Source of the DNA: a virus
Direction: 5' to 3' (one strand)
Virus record (IMG/VR): IMGVR_UViG_3300020465_000050
Coordinates: 1-36,284 of that record
Length of the DNA stretch: 36,284 nucleotides
Position numbers and translations under genes: made by a program. Shown here piece by piece: positions 3,018-36,284 of this stretch (its first letter is position 1; each line of letters begins with the position of its first letter). A model generated the notes under the pieces. The model had not been told where the DNA came from and ran no database searches. It was given only the letters and a program-made list of their open reading frames with translations.

Positions 3018-3038
3018 ATGAAATACAAGGAGATTACT

Positions 3039-5849
3039 ATGAGAAATCGTAATCTAATTCTTTCAGCAATAATGATGTGTGGTATTGTTTTCGGACAAAC
3101 CGTAACGGGATTTGTTGGTGAAGGAGAGAAACCACTTGTAGGAGCAAATGTTGTAGTAGAGGGTACTAAACTCGGCGGAGTTACAGATGAGACTGGAAAG
3201 TTCATCATTGAAACTGGGTCAGGTACTTTTGATATAACTACCTCTTACATTGGATACATAACCCAAACTAAAACAGTTAGTGTTGGGGATATTGTGTCTA
3301 GCGTTAGTTTCAATTTAGAAACTGATGTAGTCGCAATGTCAGCGTTGGAAGTTTTGGCTTCTCGTGCTGATGAAAAGACACCTGTTGCTTATACAACGGT
3401 GACTAAGGAAGAGATGGAAATCCGTCTTGGTTCACAAGATATTCCAATGTCTCTGAATATGACACCATCAGTATATGCTACTGGTCAAGGTGGTGGTGCG
3501 GGTGATGCTCGTATCAATGTTCGTGGATTCAACCAACGGAATGTAGCCGTCATGATAAATGGTGTTCCCCAAAATGATATGGAGAACGGATGGGTTTATT
3601 GGTCTAATTGGGATGGAGTAGGAGATGCTACTTCCTCAATACAGATGCAAAGAGGCCTGTCAGCTGTTAATCTTGCTACACCATCAATTGGTGGAACTAT
3701 GAACATAATCACAGATCCTACTGCTCTTGAAAAGGGTGGTAAGCTGAAACAAGAAATTGGTGCAGCTGGATTTGTGAAAACAACACTCAATTATAACACA
3801 GGTCTTATGATGGGAGACAAACTAGCTCTTAGCACAACTTTGGTTAAGAAAACTGGTGATGGTCTTATTGACGGAACTTGGACAGATGCTTATGCTTACT
3901 ACTTAGGTGGTTCATACGCTGTATCCAATGACCAAAGATTTGAGTTATATGCGATTGGTGCTCCACAAAGACATGGACAGAATCTATACAAACAAAATAT
4001 TGCTACCTACTCACAGAAGTTGGCTGGTGATATTGGGTTTGATGATGAAGGTAATGGCTATGATCCAACAGCATTTGCTGAAGGTGAGAAGTTTGAACAT
4101 GAAGCTGGTAGGTTCTTTAATCAGAATTGGGCTCCTGTTGATGAATCATACAAAGGCCAACAATATTGGTATATGTATGGTGCAAGAACAACAGATAGGT
4201 ACAATTCTGGTATCCTAAATGAAAGAGAAAACTTCTTTCATAAACCATTGGTAAACCTAAATCATTTCTATGATGTAAATGACCAAGTTAGACTAAGTTC
4301 TATCGCATATTGGTCAGGTGGTTCTGGTGGTGGTACAGGTACTTACGGTAGTGTATCAAGACAACCTGCAGTTGAGGGTTCGCCTTGGTATGCAAGTTCA
4401 CCGTGGACATGGGATTGGAATGCTGAGATTGCTCAGAACTCTGCTAATGTAGATTCTGCGTGGTCAGATACCGAAAACCGTTCTACAGGTATCCTAAGAA
4501 ACTCTATCAATAGACAGAATACCTATGGATTGATTTCCAAACTAAATTATGATGTAAATGATGATTTAGAGGTACAAGTCGGTATTGATTGGAGAACTGC
4601 TGGTATTGAACATGCTAGAGAAGTTCGTGATTTACTTGGTGGAGACTACTATGTAGATTTCGCTGATGATAATGCAGCTGATGGTAAGAAAGTTGGTTTA
4701 GGTGATATAATTGCTTATCACAATGAAACAACTGTTGATTGGTTTGGTGCATTTGTACAAGGTAAATACGACATACAGAAGTTCAACCTATATGGTATGG
4801 GTGGTGTATCTACTATTGGATATTCTTACTTAGACCATTTTGCTACTGATGCTGATGATGCCACTAAGAAGAACACAACCGTAGTTGAAGCTCCATCTAT
4901 CACAACCTTTCAAGTAAAGGGTGGTGGTGTATTTAATCTTGATGACAGATTATCAGCTTTTGCTAATCTTGGGTATGTGGAAAAACCACCTATTCTTGAT
5001 AATGTGATTGACTATGATGGTAATGTTGCTACCAATCCTTCTAATGAGAAGTTCACATCAGCAGAGGTTGGTGGTTCTTACAGAAGTGGAGCAGTTGCTG
5101 TTAAGGGTAGTTACTACAATACACAATGGAAAGATAGAAACCTTACTAAATCTGTTGAAACAGGTGCTGGTGATTCAGGTGATACTGATATTATCTATCT
5201 TACAGGTGTAAACCAAAGTCATAGTGGTGTTGAGGTTGAAACTAAAATTGCCTTACACGAAATGGTGGAATTAGATTTCGCTTTCAGTAAAGGTAATTGG
5301 TTCTTTGATGGAGATGCCAAAGGTGATTATTTAGAACAAGAGTATAATGATGATAATCAAATCATTGGTCAAATGACTACTGAATATACCTATGCTCTTA
5401 ATAATCTAAAAGTTGGTGATATGCCACAGACAGCTTATGTTGGTGGTTTAACACTAAAGCCAATCAAAGGATTGAATATTCAAGGATTGTTAAAATTCTA
5501 TGATGACAATTATGCTGATTGGTCACCAGACGCTCGTGAAGTTGAAATGGGAGATCCAGATCCTATTACTGGTGAAACATTGTATGATGCTGATAGAGCT
5601 CAAGTTTGGAAAGCTCCTGGCTATAACAAACTCGACCTACACTTATCATACAATCTTCCAGAGATTGCTGGTTTGGACTTGACTATTCATGGTCATGTCT
5701 TTAATGCTCTTGATGCAGTTTATGTTCAAGACGCGACAGATAATTCTAAGTACAATGGGTACGGTGATAAACTTCACTTAGCTCATAATGCTGAAGTATT
5801 TCTTGGAACACCAAGATACTACAACTTAGGACTAACTGTTAATTTCTAA
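3039..5849 (+). CDS. TonB-dependent outer-membrane receptor with carboxypeptidase-regulatory-like N-terminal domain
   Basis: A complete 936-residue outer-membrane importer, not a structural phage protein. I chose ATG 3039 over the upstream in-frame ATG 3018 because AAGGAG sits six bases before it and a clean signal peptide follows (basic RNRN, hydrophobic LILSAIMMCGIVFG, likely cut before QTVTG). Residues about 20-98 form a CarboxypepD_reg-like beta domain (GANVVVEGT, GGVTDETGKF). Residues about 110-230 form the plug (RINVRGFNQRN, INGVPQND, GGTMNIIT). The rest is a beta-barrel ending in aromatic NLGLTVNF. Such proteins use TonB energy to import siderophores, cobalamin, glycans or peptides; the substrate cannot be read here. 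G+C is high in places (32 of 60 bases at 3481-3540), which suggests host origin. The gene has its own terminator. Confidence 0.93.
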   Translation: MRNRNLILSAIMMCGIVFGQTVTGFVGEGEKPLVGANVVVEGTKLGGVTDETGKFIIETGSGTFDITTSYIGYITQTKTVSVGDIVSSVSFNLETDVVAMSALEVLASRADEKTPVAYTTVTKEEMEIRLGSQDIPMSLNMTPSVYATGQGGGAGDARINVRGFNQRNVAVMINGVPQNDMENGWVYWSNWDGVGDATSSIQMQRGLSAVNLATPSIGGTMNIITDPTALEKGGKLKQEIGAAGFVKTTLNYNTGLMMGDKLALSTTLVKKTGDGLIDGTWTDAYAYYLGGSYAVSNDQRFELYAIGAPQRHGQNLYKQNIATYSQKLAGDIGFDDEGNGYDPTAFAEGEKFEHEAGRFFNQNWAPVDESYKGQQYWYMYGARTTDRYNSGILNERENFFHKPLVNLNHFYDVNDQVRLSSIAYWSGGSGGGTGTYGSVSRQPAVEGSPWYASSPWTWDWNAEIAQNSANVDSAWSDTENRSTGILRNSINRQNTYGLISKLNYDVNDDLEVQVGIDWRTAGIEHAREVRDLLGGDYYVDFADDNAADGKKVGLGDIIAYHNETTVDWFGAFVQGKYDIQKFNLYGMGGVSTIGYSYLDHFATDADDATKKNTTVVEAPSITTFQVKGGGVFNLDDRLSAFANLGYVEKPPILDNVIDYDGNVATNPSNEKFTSAEVGGSYRSGAVAVKGSYYNTQWKDRNLTKSVETGAGDSGDTDIIYLTGVNQSHSGVEVETKIALHEMVELDFAFSKGNWFFDGDAKGDYLEQEYNDDNQIIGQMTTEYTYALNNLKVGDMPQTAYVGGLTLKPIKGLNIQGLLKFYDDNYADWSPDAREVEMGDPDPITGETLYDADRAQVWKAPGYNKLDLHLSYNLPEIAGLDLTIHGHVFNALDAVYVQDATDNSKYNGYGDKLHLAHNAEVFLGTPRYYNLGLTVNF

Positions 5850-5970: not shown

Positions 5971-6000
5971 TTGACTTATATGGTAAAAATGTTGTATATT
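5971..6000 (+). promoter_or_regulatory. Sigma70-like promoter, copy 1 of a recurrent family
   Basis: TTGACT (5971-5976), an 18-bp spacer and TATATT (5995-6000), preceded by an A-rich stretch and followed by the motif TAATATGAA shared with other copies. Transcription should begin near 6007, so the ATG at 6006 would lie at the RNA 5' end and the start at 6027 is preferred. It drives the PD-(D/E)XK gene and probably the polymerase. Confidence 0.8.
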
Positions 6001-13150: not shown

Positions 13151-13586
13151 ACCAAAAGTCAAAGGTCTATTTGACCACATCAAACAAATCACAATGTTTC
13201 AAAATCCTAAGTATTGGGATACATTGAGTGATGGAGACAAAAAGACTTGGAACAATTATATGGTTCATCGCTTTCTATCAATGAACCCAGATTGGATTGA
13301 TTTGGTAAATGGGATACAAGAATATTGGAAACTAGATCCAGAGATTGTGTATAAGTTTTACATATCAGTAATACCAAAGAGTCGGACATTCTTACGGTAT
13401 GTAAAATCTAAAAAGAAATCAAAAGTAGAGAAGTGGGCTATGGAACATCTAAGAGATTACTTCCAAACCAGTTCTCGTGAGATAGAAGAGTATTTAGAAA
13501 TGATGACTAAACAACAAGTTGAAACAATCATCATGAAATATGGAGTTACAGATAAAGAACTAAAACAAGTTTGGAAAAAGGCTTGA
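13128..13586 (+). CDS. 62: Clamp loader small subunit, T4 gp62-like
   Basis: A 152-residue helical protein recognisable by its N-terminal half (LFDHIKQITMFQNPKYW, then LSDGDKKTWNNYMVHRFLSMN), which is characteristic of gp62 homologues in marine T4-like phages. T4 gp62 is about 187 residues. It forms the loader with gp44. The start is a TTG inside the upstream zinc-ribbon gene, supported by GAGG nine bases earlier; no ATG occurs before the conserved block. The stop TGA is embedded in the -35 box (TTGACT) of the next promoter. Confidence 0.85.
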   Translation: MKKKSTSKPKVKGLFDHIKQITMFQNPKYWDTLSDGDKKTWNNYMVHRFLSMNPDWIDLVNGIQEYWKLDPEIVYKFYISVIPKSRTFLRYVKSKKKSKVEKWAMEHLRDYFQTSSREIEEYLEMMTKQQVETIIMKYGVTDKELKQVWKKA

Positions 13587-13612
13587 CTTATATAGGTTTT
13601 TATGTGTATATT
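13583..13612 (+). promoter_or_regulatory. Sigma70-like promoter, copy 2
   Basis: TTGACT (13583-13588), 18 bp, TATATT (13607-13612). The -35 box contains the stop codon of the gp62-like gene, so the units are packed with no spare DNA. It drives the Nmad1-like gene at 13636, which has AGGAG six bases before its ATG. Confidence 0.8.
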
Positions 13613-13635
13613 CGGTTATAAATTAGGAGTAGTAT

Positions 13636-29906: not shown

Positions 29907-30146
29907 ATGATGTACTATGTGTTTTTCAACAATGAGAAACCTGGTGATTTGTGGGATGACAATATGTTAGGTGATGAATCATTTGGTAAGTTTTATACAG
30001 GAAATGGTTTTGTTGCACTTAATAACATAATCAATAATGAACCAGAGTTACTTGAGAAGATTAAGATAATAGATGAACAAGGTAAATCTTATTCTATTAC
30101 AGAGTTTTTGGATAAGATAAAAAAGTTAAAAATAGTTCTTGACTAA
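29907..30146 (+). CDS. Hypothetical protein, 79 residues
   Basis: A small acidic protein starting MMYYVFFNNEKPGDLWDDNM at ATG 29907 (or 29910), one base after the GT2 gene. The C-terminal half is helical (PELLEKIKIIDEQG, then EFLDKIKKLK). Its last codons overlap the -35 box of the promoter at 30139, because the stop TAA follows TTGAC directly. No family recognised. Confidence 0.6.
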   Translation: MMYYVFFNNEKPGDLWDDNMLGDESFGKFYTGNGFVALNNIINNEPELLEKIKIIDEQGKSYSITEFLDKIKKLKIVLD

Positions 30147-30167
30147 TTGATATTTTAGTTGTAAATT
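30139..30167 (+). promoter_or_regulatory. Sigma70-like promoter, copy 3
   Basis: TTGACT (30139-30144), 17 bp, TAAATT (30162-30167). The -35 box overlaps the stop codon of the preceding gene. It drives the basic peptide at 30182 and the overlapping lipoprotein gene. Confidence 0.7.
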
Positions 30168-30181
30168 AAAGGATAGATAAA

Positions 30182-31183: not shown

Positions 31184-31462
31184 GTGAATGCTGCGGACAG
31201 AAAAGAATTTGATTTAATACACAACAAGATAGATAATATTACCAAATCTATTGATGATTTAAAACAAGAAATGACTATGGCTCATGGTAAAACTGATGAG
31301 TCTCTAAGGTTCTTAAAAGAAAATCTATTTAATCCACATGAAGGATTATGGACAGAAACAAAACAAAACACCCAATATAGAGAAGATGCCAAGAAGTGGA
31401 GATATGGAGTAGGTATTTTGGTACTTGGAGCATGGTTAAAAAATATTTGGGAAATGTTCTAG
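31184..31462 (+). CDS. Small coiled-coil protein with C-terminal membrane segment
   Basis: 92 residues from GTG 31184, preceded by GGAGAG. Residues about 8-50 have a heptad-like helix (FDLIHNKIDNITKSIDDLKQ). The C-terminus, YGVGILVLGAWLKNIW, is a single hydrophobic segment ending three residues before the stop. This tail-anchored layout could serve membrane attachment, lysis control or an envelope function. The C-terminal helix is rather short and has K85, so the membrane call is tentative. Confidence 0.6.
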   Translation: MNAADRKEFDLIHNKIDNITKSIDDLKQEMTMAHGKTDESLRFLKENLFNPHEGLWTETKQNTQYREDAKKWRYGVGILVLGAWLKNIWEMF

Positions 31463-31469
31463 AAAAGAC

Positions 31470-31498
31470 TTGACTTTAATAAAAATCCTTTGTATATT
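31470..31498 (+). promoter_or_regulatory. Sigma70-like promoter, copy 4
   Basis: TTGACT (31470-31475), 17 bp, TATATT (31493-31498), followed by CTAATATGAA, the same motif as at 6001. It drives the Pnk-like phosphatase at 31522, whose ATG follows AAGAGG. Confidence 0.82.
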
Positions 31499-31521
31499 CT
31501 AATATGAATTAAGAGGAAAAA

Positions 31522-32028
31522 ATGAACAAAAACACAGTTATATTTGATTTAGATGGAACACTCGCTGACATCGAAATCCGTAGAAAAAAATCAATCAAAC
31601 CTAATGGTAAAATGGATTGGGATGTATTCTTTCATCCTGATAATATTCAATATGATAAACCAATACCTGCCATAGTAAATCTAATACAAACCTATGAGGA
31701 TAAAGCATATAAGATTGTTATATTTTCTGGTAGAAATGATAGGTCTTGGAATGAAACTAAGTTATGGTTAAAGCGATATGAAATACCATTTGACCTATTG
31801 GTGATGAGACCAGATAAATTTAAGAGTAAATCTTTTCCAGTCGCCGATGGTAATCCTGCCACATCTGATATGAGATATATGCCAGATGAAATTCTCAAAA
31901 AGAAAATGTTAGATACTTTTGTTGATATTGATGATGTCTTATTTGTAGTAGATGATAGGCAAAAGGTTGTTGATATGTGGAGAGATTTGGGATTGGTAGT
32001 ATTACAACCTGCCCCTGGCAATTTCTAA
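31522..32028 (+). CDS. HAD-superfamily phosphatase, T4 Pnk 3'-phosphatase-like
   Basis: A 168-residue protein equivalent to the C-terminal domain of T4 polynucleotide kinase, which removes 3' phosphates from RNA or DNA ends. HAD motif I is D9-L-D11-G12-T13, motif II is in IFSGRND, and VDDRQKVVDMWR (D144-D145-R146) is the hallmark C-terminal motif. The 5' kinase domain is absent, and no RNA ligase is next to it. In T4 the enzyme repairs host-cleaved tRNA; a stand-alone phosphatase may act with a separate kinase or in DNA repair. Confidence 0.87.
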   Translation: MNKNTVIFDLDGTLADIEIRRKKSIKPNGKMDWDVFFHPDNIQYDKPIPAIVNLIQTYEDKAYKIVIFSGRNDRSWNETKLWLKRYEIPFDLLVMRPDKFKSKSFPVADGNPATSDMRYMPDEILKKKMLDTFVDIDDVLFVVDDRQKVVDMWRDLGLVVLQPAPGNF

Positions 32029-32198
32029 TGATTAGGTGGTTGATTAATTTATGGTATAGACATAATCCAAAATGTAATTGTGGTTGGAATATGAAATACA
32101 AAGAAAATCAATACCAAGAGGAATGGGAATGTATCTGGACTAAATGTGGTTGGGGTACATTCCAAGATAAGAACGGCAAACTTCACTGGTGGAAATAA
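32028..32198 (+). CDS. Small four-cysteine protein, 56 residues
   Basis: ATG 32028 overlaps the preceding TAA (TAATG). The protein begins MIRWLINLWYRHNPKCNCGW and has cysteines in PKCNCGW, EWECIW and KCGWGTF, consistent with a small zinc-binding fold or W-rich metal site. It ends with KLHWWK. It is tryptophan-rich for its size. An upstream frame from 31977 lies inside the phosphatase gene and is not used. Function unknown. Confidence 0.6.
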   Translation: MIRWLINLWYRHNPKCNCGWNMKYKENQYQEEWECIWTKCGWGTFQDKNGKLHWWK

Positions 32199-32617
32199 TG
32201 AAACATAGTAATTACACAAAATATAAAGATGAAATAAGAGATATTCGTAAACTACTCAATGATGAAGATTATTGTAGTGGGTTAGGAGATTACCATACTT
32301 TCTTATCTGATATGCATATGAAACTTGTATCTAATGGTAGAATAACATCCAATATGCATCAGAAGATTATAAACGGTATTGACAAATGGAAATCATTCTA
32401 TGATGAGAATGAAGTGTGGAAAAGGGAAAAGTTATTAAAGAAAGTTATGAAGTTGGCAGCCAATTGTGAAGTACATTATGTTAAGCAAGATAAGAACTAT
32501 AAGTTAAGAATGATATATAGTATAATGGAACAAGTCAAATCAAGAGGTTTTATATCCAAAAAACAAATGGAATGGTGTAATGATATGTATAAAATAATTC
32601 CAAAAAGATCAAAATAA
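32198..32617 (+). CDS. Helical hypothetical protein, 139 residues
   Basis: ATG 32198 overlaps the preceding stop (TAATG). The protein is almost entirely helical: KDEIRDIRKLLND, NMHQKIINGIDKWKSF, KLLKKVMKLAANC, and KLRMIYSIMEQVKSRG. It ends in IPKRSK; the same KRSK end is coded by two later genes through a shared DNA block. No family recognised. It could be a nucleic acid binding or host-takeover protein. Confidence 0.65.
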   Translation: MKHSNYTKYKDEIRDIRKLLNDEDYCSGLGDYHTFLSDMHMKLVSNGRITSNMHQKIINGIDKWKSFYDENEVWKREKLLKKVMKLAANCEVHYVKQDKNYKLRMIYSIMEQVKSRGFISKKQMEWCNDMYKIIPKRSK

Positions 32618-32656
32618 GGCTTGACTTTCTCATTTATTCTTTGTATATTAAGGTAT
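32602..32656 (+). repeat. 55-bp gene-end plus promoter repeat, copy A
   Basis: Starts AAAAAGATCAAAATAA, which codes the last residues KRSK and the stop of the upstream gene, then carries CTTGACTTT and ends TGTATATTAAGGTAT. Two more copies of exactly the same length are at 33196 and 33433. Differences from copy B lie mainly in the promoter spacer. Confidence 0.85.
32621..32649 (+). promoter_or_regulatory. Sigma70-like promoter, copy 5
   Basis: TTGACT (32621-32626), 17 bp, TATATT (32644-32649). It lies within the 55-bp repeat and drives the gene at 32676. The ATG at 32655 falls at the expected transcription start and is not the translation start. Confidence 0.83.
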
Positions 32657-32675
32657 GAATAAACAAGGAAATATA

Positions 32676-33023
32676 ATGAAAACAAACAAAACACCAGTAG
32701 ATTTCTGGAATCAAATTGATAATTTACTTGATAACATTGGTAATGATTATGCAACTTGGACTAATAACCAAGATGATGAAAGAACCCAAAATTTTAGAGA
32801 TGGTTTAAGATATAAGATTGGTAGAAAATTCACCAAAGTTATTGAGAAGAATAGAGTTTGGGGATTTATTGCAAATGCCGATGGAACTCATAAAGGAATA
32901 CCTCATAAAAAAGGTGATGTATTTAAGGCCGCTGGTTGGAGTGCTCCAGCTAAATGGGCTAGAGGAAGTATATTCCTAAAGAATACCGATTGGTTTACTT
33001 GGACAGGACCCAACTACCTATAA
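32676..33023 (+). CDS. Hypothetical protein, 115 residues
   Basis: ATG 32676 is used because AAGGAA lies five bases before it, downstream of the promoter. The product (MKTNKTPVDFWNQIDNLLDN, then YKIGRKFTKVIEKNR) has a C-terminal half with HKKGDVFKAAGWSAPAKWARG and ends WTGPNYL. The aromatic, basic C-terminal half may be a nucleic acid-binding beta fold. No family recognised. The stop overlaps the next ATG by one base. Confidence 0.65.
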   Translation: MKTNKTPVDFWNQIDNLLDNIGNDYATWTNNQDDERTQNFRDGLRYKIGRKFTKVIEKNRVWGFIANADGTHKGIPHKKGDVFKAAGWSAPAKWARGSIFLKNTDWFTWTGPNYL

Positions 33024-33211
33024 TGGATAAGTGTACAAAATGTAATTCAGAGTTAAATGGGAAGATGATTTTCTTCCCTGAACTTTGTTTATCTTGTGTT
33101 GTAGATTTACATTGTAATAATAAATTAGATGAATCACCAAGTGAGGTGGAAAAGGCCTTCAAAAAACAAAAGGACTTTTTAAATCATAAAGTTGAAAAAA
33201 GATCAAAATAA
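33023..33211 (+). CDS. Small zinc-finger protein, 62 residues
   Basis: ATG 33023 overlaps the preceding TAA. Two cysteine pairs, CTKC at residues 4-7 and CLSC further on, form a treble-clef or ribbon-like zinc site. A helical lysine-rich tail ends VEKRSK. Such small zinc proteins in phages are often host-takeover factors. The terminal codons lie inside the second 55-bp repeat. An upstream frame from 32990 overlaps the previous gene and is not used. Confidence 0.65.
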   Translation: MDKCTKCNSELNGKMIFFPELCLSCVVDLHCNNKLDESPSEVEKAFKKQKDFLNHKVEKRSK

Positions 33212-33250
33212 TACTTGACTTTGGCGATTATTATGTGTATATTAAGGTAT
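33196..33250 (+). repeat. 55-bp gene-end plus promoter repeat, copy B
   Basis: Same layout as copy A: the KRSK-stop codons, then CTTGACTTTGGCGATTATTA and TGTATATTAAGGTAT. Compared with copy C at 33433 it matches at 51 of 55 positions by my count. Confidence 0.88.
33215..33243 (+). promoter_or_regulatory. Sigma70-like promoter, copy 6
   Basis: TTGACT (33215-33220), 17 bp, TATATT (33238-33243), within repeat copy B. It drives the 55-residue gene at 33281. Confidence 0.83.
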
Positions 33251-33280
33251 AGAAATTAACTAATAAATAAAGGATTTGAA

Positions 33281-33448
33281 ATGAGAAAAGTAATTAAATT
33301 TGTAAACAAAAAGAAACCAGTTGTCATCACTAAAAATGGTGTACAATATAATAGAGTTGATTTAGGTGGTCATACTATGGACATCAGAATTAAGAGTGAG
33401 AAAGAGTTTAAAAATGATGTCAAATTATTTGCAAAAAGATCAAAATAA
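33281..33448 (+). CDS. Small basic protein, 55 residues
   Basis: ATG 33281, preceded by AAAGGATTTGAA, in a separate promoter unit. The protein starts MRKVIKFVNKKKPVVITKNG, looks beta-rich with alternating strands (VQYNRVDLGG, TMDIRIKSE) and ends FAKRSK. The terminal codons are part of repeat copy C. It is flanked by near-identical promoters on both sides, so it forms a discrete cassette. Function unknown. Confidence 0.65.
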   Translation: MRKVIKFVNKKKPVVITKNGVQYNRVDLGGHTMDIRIKSEKEFKNDVKLFAKRSK

Positions 33449-33487
33449 CACTTGACTTTGGCGATTATTATTTGTATATTATAGTAT
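33433..33487 (+). repeat. 55-bp gene-end plus promoter repeat, copy C
   Basis: Third copy, again exactly 55 bp from AAAAAGATC to the TAT after the -10 box. It encloses the end of the gene at 33281 and the promoter for the gene at 33507. Copies B and C bracket one small gene like a cassette. Confidence 0.88.
33452..33480 (+). promoter_or_regulatory. Sigma70-like promoter, copy 7
   Basis: TTGACT (33452-33457), 17 bp, TATATT (33475-33480), in repeat copy C. It drives the acidic gene at 33507 and probably the four overlapping genes after it. Confidence 0.83.
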
Positions 33488-33506: not shown

Positions 33507-33905
33507 ATGAACTTAGAAACTTATTTAGAAACAAACAACTTTAACAAAAATGACCTCACTATATTATTTAGTGTTGGTTGTGTATTGAATACCAAAACTG
33601 GTGATACATTTCCTATGATGGCTGATGACACTTTTGATTTTGAAGATGGAATGAATGTGGTTACTGATGAATTTGATGTATACTGGTGGGAAAATTTAGG
33701 TAAATGGAAACCTGAAGAAAGACTTGTGTTGGAAACCATTGAGAATATAAATGATGAACCTTATGACCATTCAATAGACACTATTGATCCTGATGAATCT
33801 GAACTACCAGGTCCTAATCCAAATACTTATGGTTATAATGATACTATCTCTGATGAAGAAGTGGATTGGTTAGAGTCTAAAGTTGAACTATCTTTGGGGA
33901 TATAA
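33507..33905 (+). CDS. Acidic hypothetical protein, 132 residues
   Basis: ATG 33507 follows AAAAAAGGAAAAAACA; the in-frame ATG at 33486 sits at the likely transcription start. The protein is very acidic, with DDTFDFEDG, TDEFDVYWWEN, ENINDEPYDHS and DPDESELPGP, ending with a helix (SDEEVDWLESKVELSLGI). Such DNA-mimic-like acidity appears in anti-restriction and host-inhibitor proteins, but also in ordinary small phage proteins; I infer nothing firm. It heads a four- or five-gene unit. Confidence 0.65.
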   Translation: MNLETYLETNNFNKNDLTILFSVGCVLNTKTGDTFPMMADDTFDFEDGMNVVTDEFDVYWWENLGKWKPEERLVLETIENINDEPYDHSIDTIDPDESELPGPNPNTYGYNDTISDEEVDWLESKVELSLGI

Positions 33906-34747: not shown

Positions 34748-34818
34748 TAAAACTTTTAGGTTTTTTTATAATAGTACTTCTTGTGGTTATGGTATACTTG
34801 ATGATTTCACAAGATTAA
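34738..34818 (+). CDS. Possible 26-residue transmembrane peptide
   Basis: ATG 34738 inside the end of the previous gene opens a frame coding MGLVKLLGFFIIVLLVVMVY and ending LMISQD. Nearly the whole peptide is a single membrane helix with one lysine near the N-terminus. Overlap with the upstream gene supports coupled translation, but a ribosome site is weak and hydrophobic frames arise by chance in T-rich DNA. It could be a small holin-like or envelope peptide. Confidence 0.4.
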   Translation: MGLVKLLGFFIIVLLVVMVYLMISQD

Positions 34819-34822
34819 AACA

Positions 34823-34902
34823 AAGTAAACGCCAGTCAAAGTTCCCGATAATTTATAAAGTAAAACGCCACTAAAACGGAACATAATCAACAAAGTTACG
34901 CC
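34823..34902. repeat. Three iteron-like AAAGT-ACGCC repeats
   Basis: AAAGTAAACGCC, AAAGTAAAACGCC and AAAGTTACGCC have their ACGCC cores at 34829, 34865 and 34898, 36 and 33 bp apart (about three helical turns). A fourth ACGCC at 34965 has a different left flank. Such repeats commonly bind an initiator or regulator. Confidence 0.6.
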
Positions 34903-34917
34903 GATAAGTTCAAAGGA

Positions 34918-34934
34918 TAATCTCTCCGAGATTA
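34918..34934. other. Seven-base-pair hairpin with three-base loop
   Basis: TAATCTC (34918-34924) is the exact reverse complement of GAGATTA (34928-34934), with loop TCC. Beyond a bulged A, GG and CC can extend the stem. Without a T-run it is more likely a structural or binding site than a terminator. Confidence 0.6.
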
Positions 34935-35056
34935 CCCAACTTGAGCCTTTCTCGGTATATCTTGACGCCATCATCACGGTAATCAAATAATCAATGATAA
35001 TCAATCTTAGATAATGTTCAGCTTTCGGTTAGGTTAATTGAGAAAATGCATCAAGT

Positions 35057-35094
35057 TATGGATAAACACACCAAGATACAATCCCTGCGGATAA
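35057..35094. promoter_or_regulatory. Two DnaA-box-like sites
   Basis: TATGGATAA (35057-35065) and TGCGGATAA (35086-35094) each differ at one position from TGTGGATAA, the complement of the classical DnaA box. Further GGATAA words occur at about 34915 and 35487. Single mismatches are common by chance in AT-rich DNA, and T4-like phages do not normally need DnaA, so this is suggestive only. Confidence 0.3.
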
Positions 35095-35138
35095 ATATCT
35101 TATAGTGTTAATTCATAGTATAGGTTAAAAGGTAAAAT

Positions 35139-35185
35139 GGTGAGCAATGTGTATAGGTAATGCTTGATTACCATTCACCCTATAC
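35139..35185. other. Nested inverted repeats
   Basis: GTATAGG (35151-35157) is the exact complement of CCTATAC (35179-35185). Inside, GGTAAT (35156-35161) pairs with ATTACC (35167-35172), and GGTGA (35139-35143) can pair with TCACC (about 35175-35179). The arms share bases, so the structures are alternatives, as in a switch or a cruciform. Confidence 0.55.
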
Positions 35186-35294
35186 CCAATAACCCAAATG
35201 ATGAAATCTCATAATGCAATATAATAAAGTGCTATAATTCCCCAATACCCCTATTACCCAATACTCTCAACTTCCCTAATTCCCCTATATCCCC
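35178..35294 (-). repeat. Phased C-runs (G-runs on the minus strand), possible G-quadruplex/iteron tract
   Basis: Runs of three or four C begin at 35178, 35185, 35193, 35240, 35248, 35257, 35274, 35282 and 35291, mostly 7-9 bp apart, in alternating CCCAAT and CCCTAT words. More CCCTAT words follow near 35348 and 35369. The minus strand therefore has G-runs that could stack into quadruplexes. No gene explains the pattern. Confidence 0.55.
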
Positions 35295-35350
35295 AATTGA
35301 ATCTGTTAAAAAAATCTTTAAACTTTGTAAAAGCATCTCTATAATACCCC

Positions 35351-35407
35351 TATTTCAGGCATAATCAACCCTATATGGAGGCTGAAATACTATACACCTA
35401 AAGGTGT
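35351..35407. other. Two adjacent hairpins
   Basis: TATTTCAG (35351-35358) pairs with CTGAAATA (35382-35389) around a 23-base loop. Immediately downstream ACACC (35394-35398) pairs with GGTGT (35403-35407) around TAAA. No T-run follows either. They could be part of a structured RNA or an origin. Confidence 0.5.
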
Positions 35408-35559
35408 GGCTATTACATAAAGAGTTCTGTATTGGATTGATTTACCGAAATTCTTATACCACCATTCCCCACCGTTACCCCTTTTTAGGATAAACCACTA
35501 CTTATTTATATAGATAAGTGTATATTTAATTCAGGATACAAATTGAATAATATAAGTGT

Positions 35560-35586
35560 GTATGTCTTTGTGTCATACTTTTTTTT
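35560..35586 (+). terminator. Weak terminator-like hairpin with T8 tail
   Basis: GTATG (35560-35564) pairs with CATAC (35574-35578) and is followed directly by eight T (35579-35586); a second T8 run follows at 35594-35601. The stem is short and AT-rich, so efficiency would be low. Confidence 0.35.
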
Positions 35587-35649
35587 ATAGCACTTTTTTT
35601 TACACCTATCACTTAAAATATGTCATTATGTCACAATATAGGAGTTTAT

Positions 35650-36246
35650 ATGGCACGAACTGGTAGACCTGGTCTTAATTTCACACCTCAACGGATTAGA
35701 TGGGCAATTAAATCCACACAAAGTATGAAACAGGCAGCAGATTATTTAAATACTTCATTTCCTACCTTTAAAAAGTATGCAATACAATTTGATTTGTGGG
35801 ATCCCAAGAAATCCTCTAAGGGTATTAGGAGAAGTAGTACTGGTACGATACAGTATGATATAAATAAAATACTTAACGGAGAGAACCCTAATCCTTATAG
35901 GGAAGATACTTTATTAAAGAAAGCTATAAGAGAAGGCTTGATGAAATGTGAATGTGGTAATTGTGGTACGGATTTCAGTATAGATAATAAGATACCGCCT
36001 TTAATGTTGGACTTCTTAGATAAGAATACACAGAACACCAAGATAGATAATTTACGAGCCTTGTGTTTTAATTGTATGTATGTATTAAGTAAGACCAATA
36101 GAGGGTGGTATAGACATAGGAAGTCACCTATTCAGTTAGCCTTAAATGATGTACCAGCAGAAGTAGATGTCAATATGACAGAGTTACCGAGTGAGGAGCC
36201 TGAAGTGGACTATATGCCATTTGAAGAGTTCCAAAAATTGTTATAA
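35650..36246 (+). CDS. HNH/endonuclease-like protein with degenerate catalytic positions
   Basis: 198 residues from ATG 35650, preceded by TAGGAG; an in-frame ATG at 35620 lacks such a site. An N-terminal helix-turn-helix-like stretch (SMKQAADYLNTSFPTFKKYA) precedes a zinc HNH-like core: C102/C105 (CGNC), LDFLDKN at 120-126, and C139/C142 (LCFNCM). In active HNH enzymes LDF would be LDH and the CxxC would be followed by H; here they are F122 and M143. It is therefore probably a DNA-binding relative rather than an efficient nuclease, a variant seen in other phages. The acidic C-terminal tail (SEEPEVDYMPFEEF) is unusual. It is followed by a promoter. Confidence 0.7.
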   Translation: MARTGRPGLNFTPQRIRWAIKSTQSMKQAADYLNTSFPTFKKYAIQFDLWDPKKSSKGIRRSSTGTIQYDINKILNGENPNPYREDTLLKKAIREGLMKCECGNCGTDFSIDNKIPPLMLDFLDKNTQNTKIDNLRALCFNCMYVLSKTNRGWYRHRKSPIQLALNDVPAEVDVNMTELPSEEPEVDYMPFEEFQKLL

Positions 36247-36253
36247 AAAGTAC

Positions 36254-36282
36254 TTGACTTTCTCCCCAAACTTTTGTAAATT
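36254..36282 (+). promoter_or_regulatory. Sigma70-like promoter, copy 8
   Basis: TTGACT (36254-36259), 17 bp, TAAATT (36277-36282), eight bases after the stop of the HNH-like gene. The unit it drives lies beyond the window. Confidence 0.75.
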
Positions 36283-36284
36283 AG

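Follow-up and report, generated by a model that had tools for sequence, protein, structure and literature searches.

The three 55-bp blocks repeated at the ends of small genes in this phage DNA are probably (roughly 75%) copies of a compact promoter joint, spread by recombination that moves small genes between joints. The joint is standard for a marine T4-like phage clade. The window, meaning the whole stretch of DNA analyzed here, is the complete virus record IMGVR_UViG_3300020465_000050 (36,284 bp), itself a fragment.

Three blocks and their genes

The blocks and the genes around them are as follows.

32602..32656, plus strand: copy A, with a KRSK-TAA gene end (32602-32617), -35 box TTGACT (32621-32626), 17-bp spacer, -10 box TATATT (32644-32649), and start region AAGGTAT
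33196..33250, plus strand: copy B, with its gene end at 33196-33211, -35 box at 33215-33220, and -10 box at 33238-33243
33433..33487, plus strand: copy C, with its gene end at 33433-33448, -35 box at 33452-33457, and -10 box at 33475-33480
32198..32617, plus strand: gene ending in copy A (139 aa, family c6)
32679..33023, plus strand: gene predicted to be expressed from copy A (114 aa, DUF7717-like, PF24835, E 2e-6), used as the anchor gene c0
33023..33211, plus strand: gene ending in copy B (62 aa, Cys-rich, family c53)
33281..33448, plus strand: gene between copies B and C, ending in copy C (55 aa, family c28)
33507..33905, plus strand: gene predicted to be expressed from copy C (132 aa); a related gene follows a module in the relatives L059-L062, L022, and L035

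The original prediction described three 55-bp blocks starting at 32602, 33196, and 33433, each coding KRSK and a stop and then carrying a promoter. Both points hold, the promoter being of the sigma-70 type as judged by consensus. The ungapped, colinear blocks match at 51/55 positions for B and C, 47/55 for A and B, and 46/55 for A and C, with a 55-bp extent that is soft at the 3' end, where the leader up to the start codon is also partly alike between A and C. In the 30 bp 5' of each block, identity is at background (9-16/30). The first 16 bp, AAAAAGATCAAAATAA, are the same in all three copies and read in one frame as K-R-S-K-stop, ending three unrelated genes of 139, 62, and 55 aa. The longest exact run common to any pair is 22 bp.

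The original prediction proposed looking for further copies in the full genome. With up to 3 mismatches tolerated in the 26-bp core, the 36,284-bp record still contains only these three, and no exact copy of the block core occurs in 2.9 million viral contigs (IMG/VR). Weaker promoter relatives lie within the window at 5971, 13583, 30139, 31470, and 36254. The following weaker modules can be described.

13564..13619, plus strand: module of the replication region, whose -35 TGA (13583) serves as the stop codon of the upstream gene (..KQVWKKA*)
30120..30174, plus strand: weaker module E; the stop of gene 29907-30146 falls within its promoter
31451..31505, plus strand: weaker module D, preceding a PNKP-phosphatase-like HAD gene (31522-32028)
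36235..36284, plus strand: module F at the contig end, following an HNH-endonuclease-like gene (35620-36246)

A promoter module shared by a clade

Relatives were found through the DUF7717-like gene downstream of copy A and through alignments of two neighboring gene families. After duplicate removal, the set comprised 74 sequences (~1.0 Mb, window included); 8 contigs matching a looser 24-bp pattern were left out of the analysis. Except for two cultured comparisons, the genomes used are metagenomic contigs, and these are non-independent. Modules were defined by the pattern TTGAC-N16-18-GTANNTT or close variants. The 74 contigs carry 227 modules on the same strand as the genes, compared with 9 on the other. 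The consensus has A-rich tracts at about -20 to -14 and -10 to -4 before the -35 box, a C at -1 (96%), and TTGACTT, followed by a T-rich spacer, TTTGTATATT, a weak start region, and AAAGGA before the ATG.

A generic E. coli-type sigma-70 scan of the region returned 32 sites against 34 in shuffles, which is no excess, so the evidence is limited to the TTGACT-17-TATATT-type class. By their consensus, the modules are predicted to be active sigma-70-type promoters, and the genes at them would be early-timed. UP elements are promoter sequences bound by the RNA polymerase alpha subunit. The two A-tracts, ~10 bp apart and directly upstream of the -35 box, have the look of such an element, and binding by the alpha-CTD is predicted.

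Of the nearest cultured phages, Microcystis phage Mel-JY01 lacks modules in the examined stretch, and the Pelagibacter phage Mosig has no repeated module family. Within Mosig EXVC030M (L103, 44829-45047), the stop of the annotated gene Mosig_00121 is the TGA of a promoter-like TTGACA -35 box.

Exchange of genes at the modules

The original prediction proposed that gene content between the copies be compared among related phages. The relatives carry the same small gene families between modules, among them the families of the genes upstream of copies A, B, and C, in widely different orders around c0. Among the relatives, 11 different downstream families come after modules that follow c6, the family whose window member ends in copy A. 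The c28 gene (33281-33448 in the window) lies directly before c0 in L036-L044 and after c0 in the window, as expected if the gene was moved.

Breaks in similarity were mapped from alignments of at least 85% identity and at least 200 bp. Modules contain 82 of the 500 distinct break sites against 15.8 +- 4.2 expected, ~5x. Of 159 gene junctions with a module, 51 bear a break, compared to 183/1345 of those without one (p=2.5e-8; the odds ratio is 3.0, or 2.2 if the comparison is restricted to neighboring junctions). These counts include non-independent contigs, with 37 distinct module groups bearing breaks, and many breaks also fall at the junctions that lack a module. Around modules, similarity on the upstream side stops at +30 to +70, and similarity on the downstream side starts at -30 to -10; the module is thus the shared patch where partners change.

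There are 22 candidate chimeric modules. In L058, the sequence bounded by modules 5913 and 6405 is of the L059-L062 type (518 bp, 88%). The sequence before 5913 is L036-like (1163 bp, 91%), and that after 6405 matches L036, L038, L043, and L044. Going by these matches, it is one clean replacement of a ~0.5-kb module-bounded cassette at a place where L036 carries others. At L038:9332, an L036-type gene end, tail, and promoter are joined to an L037-type leader and gene from just past the -10 box, and L015:8979 and L035:1327 are common up to the -35 box and different beyond it. Cassette shuffling at the modules is supported by these alignments. The breaks, the chimeras, and the whole-cassette replacement support the suggestion that the small genes are bracketed by blocks at which recombination takes place. 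The same gene order with unrelated ends and no exchange at the blocks, which had been named as the opposing pattern, is not what the relatives show.

Crossovers also appear to have occurred inside the blocks of the window. The gene end of copy A is of the B/C type (16/16), whereas its promoter matches the L051 promoter of the same downstream gene at 34/36 positions and copy B at 30/36. The leader of copy C matches the leader of a related gene in L062 at 24/25. These comparisons of 25-36 bp, on which the mosaic calls rest, suggest that copy A crossed over at the -35 box and copy C close to the start site. The gene end and promoter had been said to travel together. They do so as a shared repeat, but not always as one unit, since crossovers fall within the module. 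The search yielded no near-identical relative of the window phage in which the events that made A, B, and C could be read directly.

The same evidence bears on local duplication with gene conversion. In that account, a promoter was duplicated within the genome and its copies were homogenized while the genes stayed unmoved. The copies are restricted to one 0.9-kb stretch and private to the window lineage, and promoters of the class have a genome-specific dialect (spacer identity 0.56 within genomes and 0.45 between distant ones). Local duplication is nevertheless unlikely as the sole process, since it is at odds with the varied orders around the same gene families, the breaks at modules, and the resemblance of the A and C leaders to leaders of the same downstream genes elsewhere.

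Copying beyond promoter constraint

Each block contains a promoter, and the likeness of the copies could therefore stem from shared constraint. For this reason, a position-specific model was built from distinct modules of related phages as a test of promoter constraint alone. Two random modules under this model match at ~31/55 positions. The probability of a match is 6e-11 for at least 51/55, 3e-7 for at least 47, and 1.5e-6 for at least 46, and the identity of all three copies over the 16 gene-end bases has P=4e-7. The 16-mer of the window is unlike that of any relative, with a best match of 13/16. Since 51/55 is so improbable under promoter constraint, the copies are derived from one another, and by this comparison of their letters A, B, and C must have a recent common origin.

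The opposing account holds that the copies are alike only because all early promoters, including the UP-like A-tract, are under the same selection, with no exchange. A strong consensus does extend across ~90 bp of the class in all relatives, and even unrelated modules agree at the level given above. This account is improbable and largely refuted by the 51/55 match, by the 16-mer that relatives do not share, and by the chimeric modules and cassette replacement found in them.

Assembly artefact, in which contigs misjoined at short repeats yield both copies and chimeras, is a very small risk. The genomes were assembled from metagenomes, and assemblers can go wrong at repeats of 20-75 bp. The 22-bp longest exact run is shorter than the k-mers usual in assembly, which makes misassembly at A, B, and C unlikely. 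The donors at the L038 and L058 switch zones have only short exact runs in common, and the L059-L062 arrangement is seen in four contigs with different sample prefixes.

The gene end as translated promoter

The upstream gene's stop is the TGA within the -35 box TTGACT in 57 of the 227 modules, and lies between that TGA and 20 bp upstream (-3 to +20) in 142/227. When similar modules are collapsed and those with a nearby ORF end are kept, the stop is the -35 TGA in 30/99 groups and falls between 3 bp inside the -35 box and 20 bp before it in 87/99. Coding of the upstream C-terminus, described earlier as unusual, is by this count the rule in the clade. Upstream genes enter modules in all three reading frames, and all three frames are closed within 53 bp in 79/181 distinct modules, compared to 9% of random stretches.

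The A-rich upstream promoter element overlies the gene end, and the last codons and stop of the preceding gene are therefore coded by the module. Lys and Asn make up 37% of the last 8 residues in genes ending in modules and 20% elsewhere (p=2e-23). Module-end tails in relatives include KKNEKNT*, KKIQKST*, and KSENNA*. One DNA stretch, GAAAAAAACACTTGACTTTATCAAATATTCTTTGTATATT, serves as an EKNT-stop tail and promoter in L036 and is untranslated behind a different gene in L058. Homologues of the window's three genes end in KKNEKNT, KKIQKST, KYKEKT, and NYKKK, not KRSK, so KRSK is no protein signal. By its sequence, it is the window lineage's form of the promoter upstream tract, read in one frame. 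The idea that selection favored KRSK as a functional tag at the C-terminus of three proteins, with the DNA match a consequence, has an identical tetrapeptide in three unrelated proteins in its favor and was rejected as barely credible, because the homologues end otherwise, 16/16 bases are identical beyond the residues, and the match continues into the non-coding promoter.

Proposed mechanism

In the proposed mechanism, the joint consists of an A-rich UP-like tract, the -35 box, 17 bp, the -10 box, the start region, and an AAAGGA ribosome-binding leader. It lies across the gene boundary such that the upstream A-rich tract is read as the preceding gene's last 4-9 codons and stop. Recombination at joints, homologous or by annealing over ~20-55 bp, would insert, remove, and reorder the small genes between them, with joints in one genome or in co-infecting phages as partners. 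T4-like phages have efficient recombination and annealing functions. Joints are alike within and between related phages, which makes recombination at them possible. With two or three frames closed at each joint, and a promoter and ribosome-binding leader supplied, genes would stay expressed in the products. In the window, such exchange would have spread the 16-bp gene end to three genes, with crossovers inside the joint.

A broader version of this reading has slightly better than even odds. One promoter may be the universal gene joint of the clade, its UP element and -35 box doubling as the final codons and stop of any gene placed before it. Whichever gene is spliced in, and whichever joint receives it, termination and expression would then be preserved, and its tail would be rewritten with each exchange.

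The proposed joint offers a concrete, testable way for marine T4-like phages to gain, lose, and reorder small accessory genes with expression intact. It also accounts for the Lys/Asn-rich C-termini of many orphan phage proteins, which would be translated promoter and not a product of protein function. A TTGACT box that contains a stop codon is a simple signature of cassette borders in uncultured phages.

Comparison with known systems

At gene junctions of lambdoid phages, short stretches of homology known as boundary sequences direct recombination and leave the genes able to be expressed. They have mainly been described at gene boundaries and translation starts, with each patch tied to one kind of junction. 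The modules likewise form a homologous patch across the junction where mosaics switch, as the break positions and candidate chimeras indicate. Unlike the lambdoid sequences, one promoter patch recurs at several unrelated junctions within one genome. The short conserved boundary sequences of lambdoid phages are mentioned in PMC3029335.

The same paper describes mycobacteriophage Island3, where a ~50-bp repeat codes the C-terminal 18 residues of the two adjacent unrelated genes 67 and 68. The repeat was read as a joint at which recombination adds or removes genes (PMC3029335). It is a published precedent for C-terminus coding within a recombination repeat, and like the modules it uses a coding gene end as the joint. 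In contrast to the blocks, it is a single case, not genome-wide, and the passages on it mention no promoter in the repeat.

T4-type phages carry mobile regulatory cassettes termed promoter early stem-loops, or PeSLs (Arbiol et al. 2010 and Comeau et al. 2014, as summarized in PMC4503421). As described there, host-like early promoter units occur repeatedly between the small genes of plastic T4-like regions, and genes are shuffled at them. The blocks are similar in that multiple copies lie between small genes with shuffling. They may also carry a host-type early promoter: their class is TTGACT-17-TATATT with a strong bias to the gene strand, and the generic scan gave no excess. According to that summary, PeSLs lie between genes, whereas the present unit covers the end of the upstream gene, whose last residues and stop it codes. 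No terminator-like stem-loop was found on the gene strand near A, B, or C, and the 60 nt upstream of modules have a mean folding z of -0.57. Without a terminator stem-loop, the blocks are not PeSLs. The likeness to promoter-containing repeats between phage early genes, drawn in the original prediction, extends to PeSL-like copies with shuffling but not to the stem-loop, and PeSL cassettes can be taken as the closest working analogue.

Start-associated sequences of cluster K mycobacteriophages are many short regulatory repeats, nearly all in one orientation, adjoining small genes (PMC3203893). The modules resemble them as a multi-copy regulatory repeat in one orientation beside small genes. The start-associated sequences sit at gene starts, and the passages on them in PMC3203893 report no gene-end coding; the modules run from the upstream gene to the leader and span the junction. 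A promoter and gene end repeated clade-wide, with the -35 box as stop codon, is a combination not found in the literature searched, the coverage of which was incomplete.

Other features of the window and its relatives

A conserved stretch, aaataggttatcgttctcaaagaattg, follows a module at L015:12511, L021:6311, L024:8901, and L035:5057. It has no Rfam match in the loci tested (L015 and L024) and is possibly an RNA of a new type. No Rfam element was found in the block region of the window at E<=1. Genes for tmRNA were identified in relatives by ARAGORN or Rfam at L021:456-877, L045:102-538, L047:7794-8225, L048:242-667, L049:172-588, and L073:9378-9797. Those of L045, L047, L048, and L049 come directly after the same promoter class. 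A manA RNA motif (RF01745, 65.5 bits) lies at L043:11107-11308, downstream of the cassette region; the window has no such match.

The 55-aa protein (33281-33448) matched no relative when used as a single-protein query, whereas an alignment of seven proteins of its family did. Between the small-gene region and the HNH gene, positions 34790-35620 form ~830 bp without a convincing gene and with many short C-runs on the plus strand. Amid the T4-like replication genes, positions 3018-5849 encode a 943-aa TonB-dependent-receptor-like protein with carboxypeptidase-regulatory and Plug domains, which may be an outer-membrane receptor carried by the phage, an unusual cargo.
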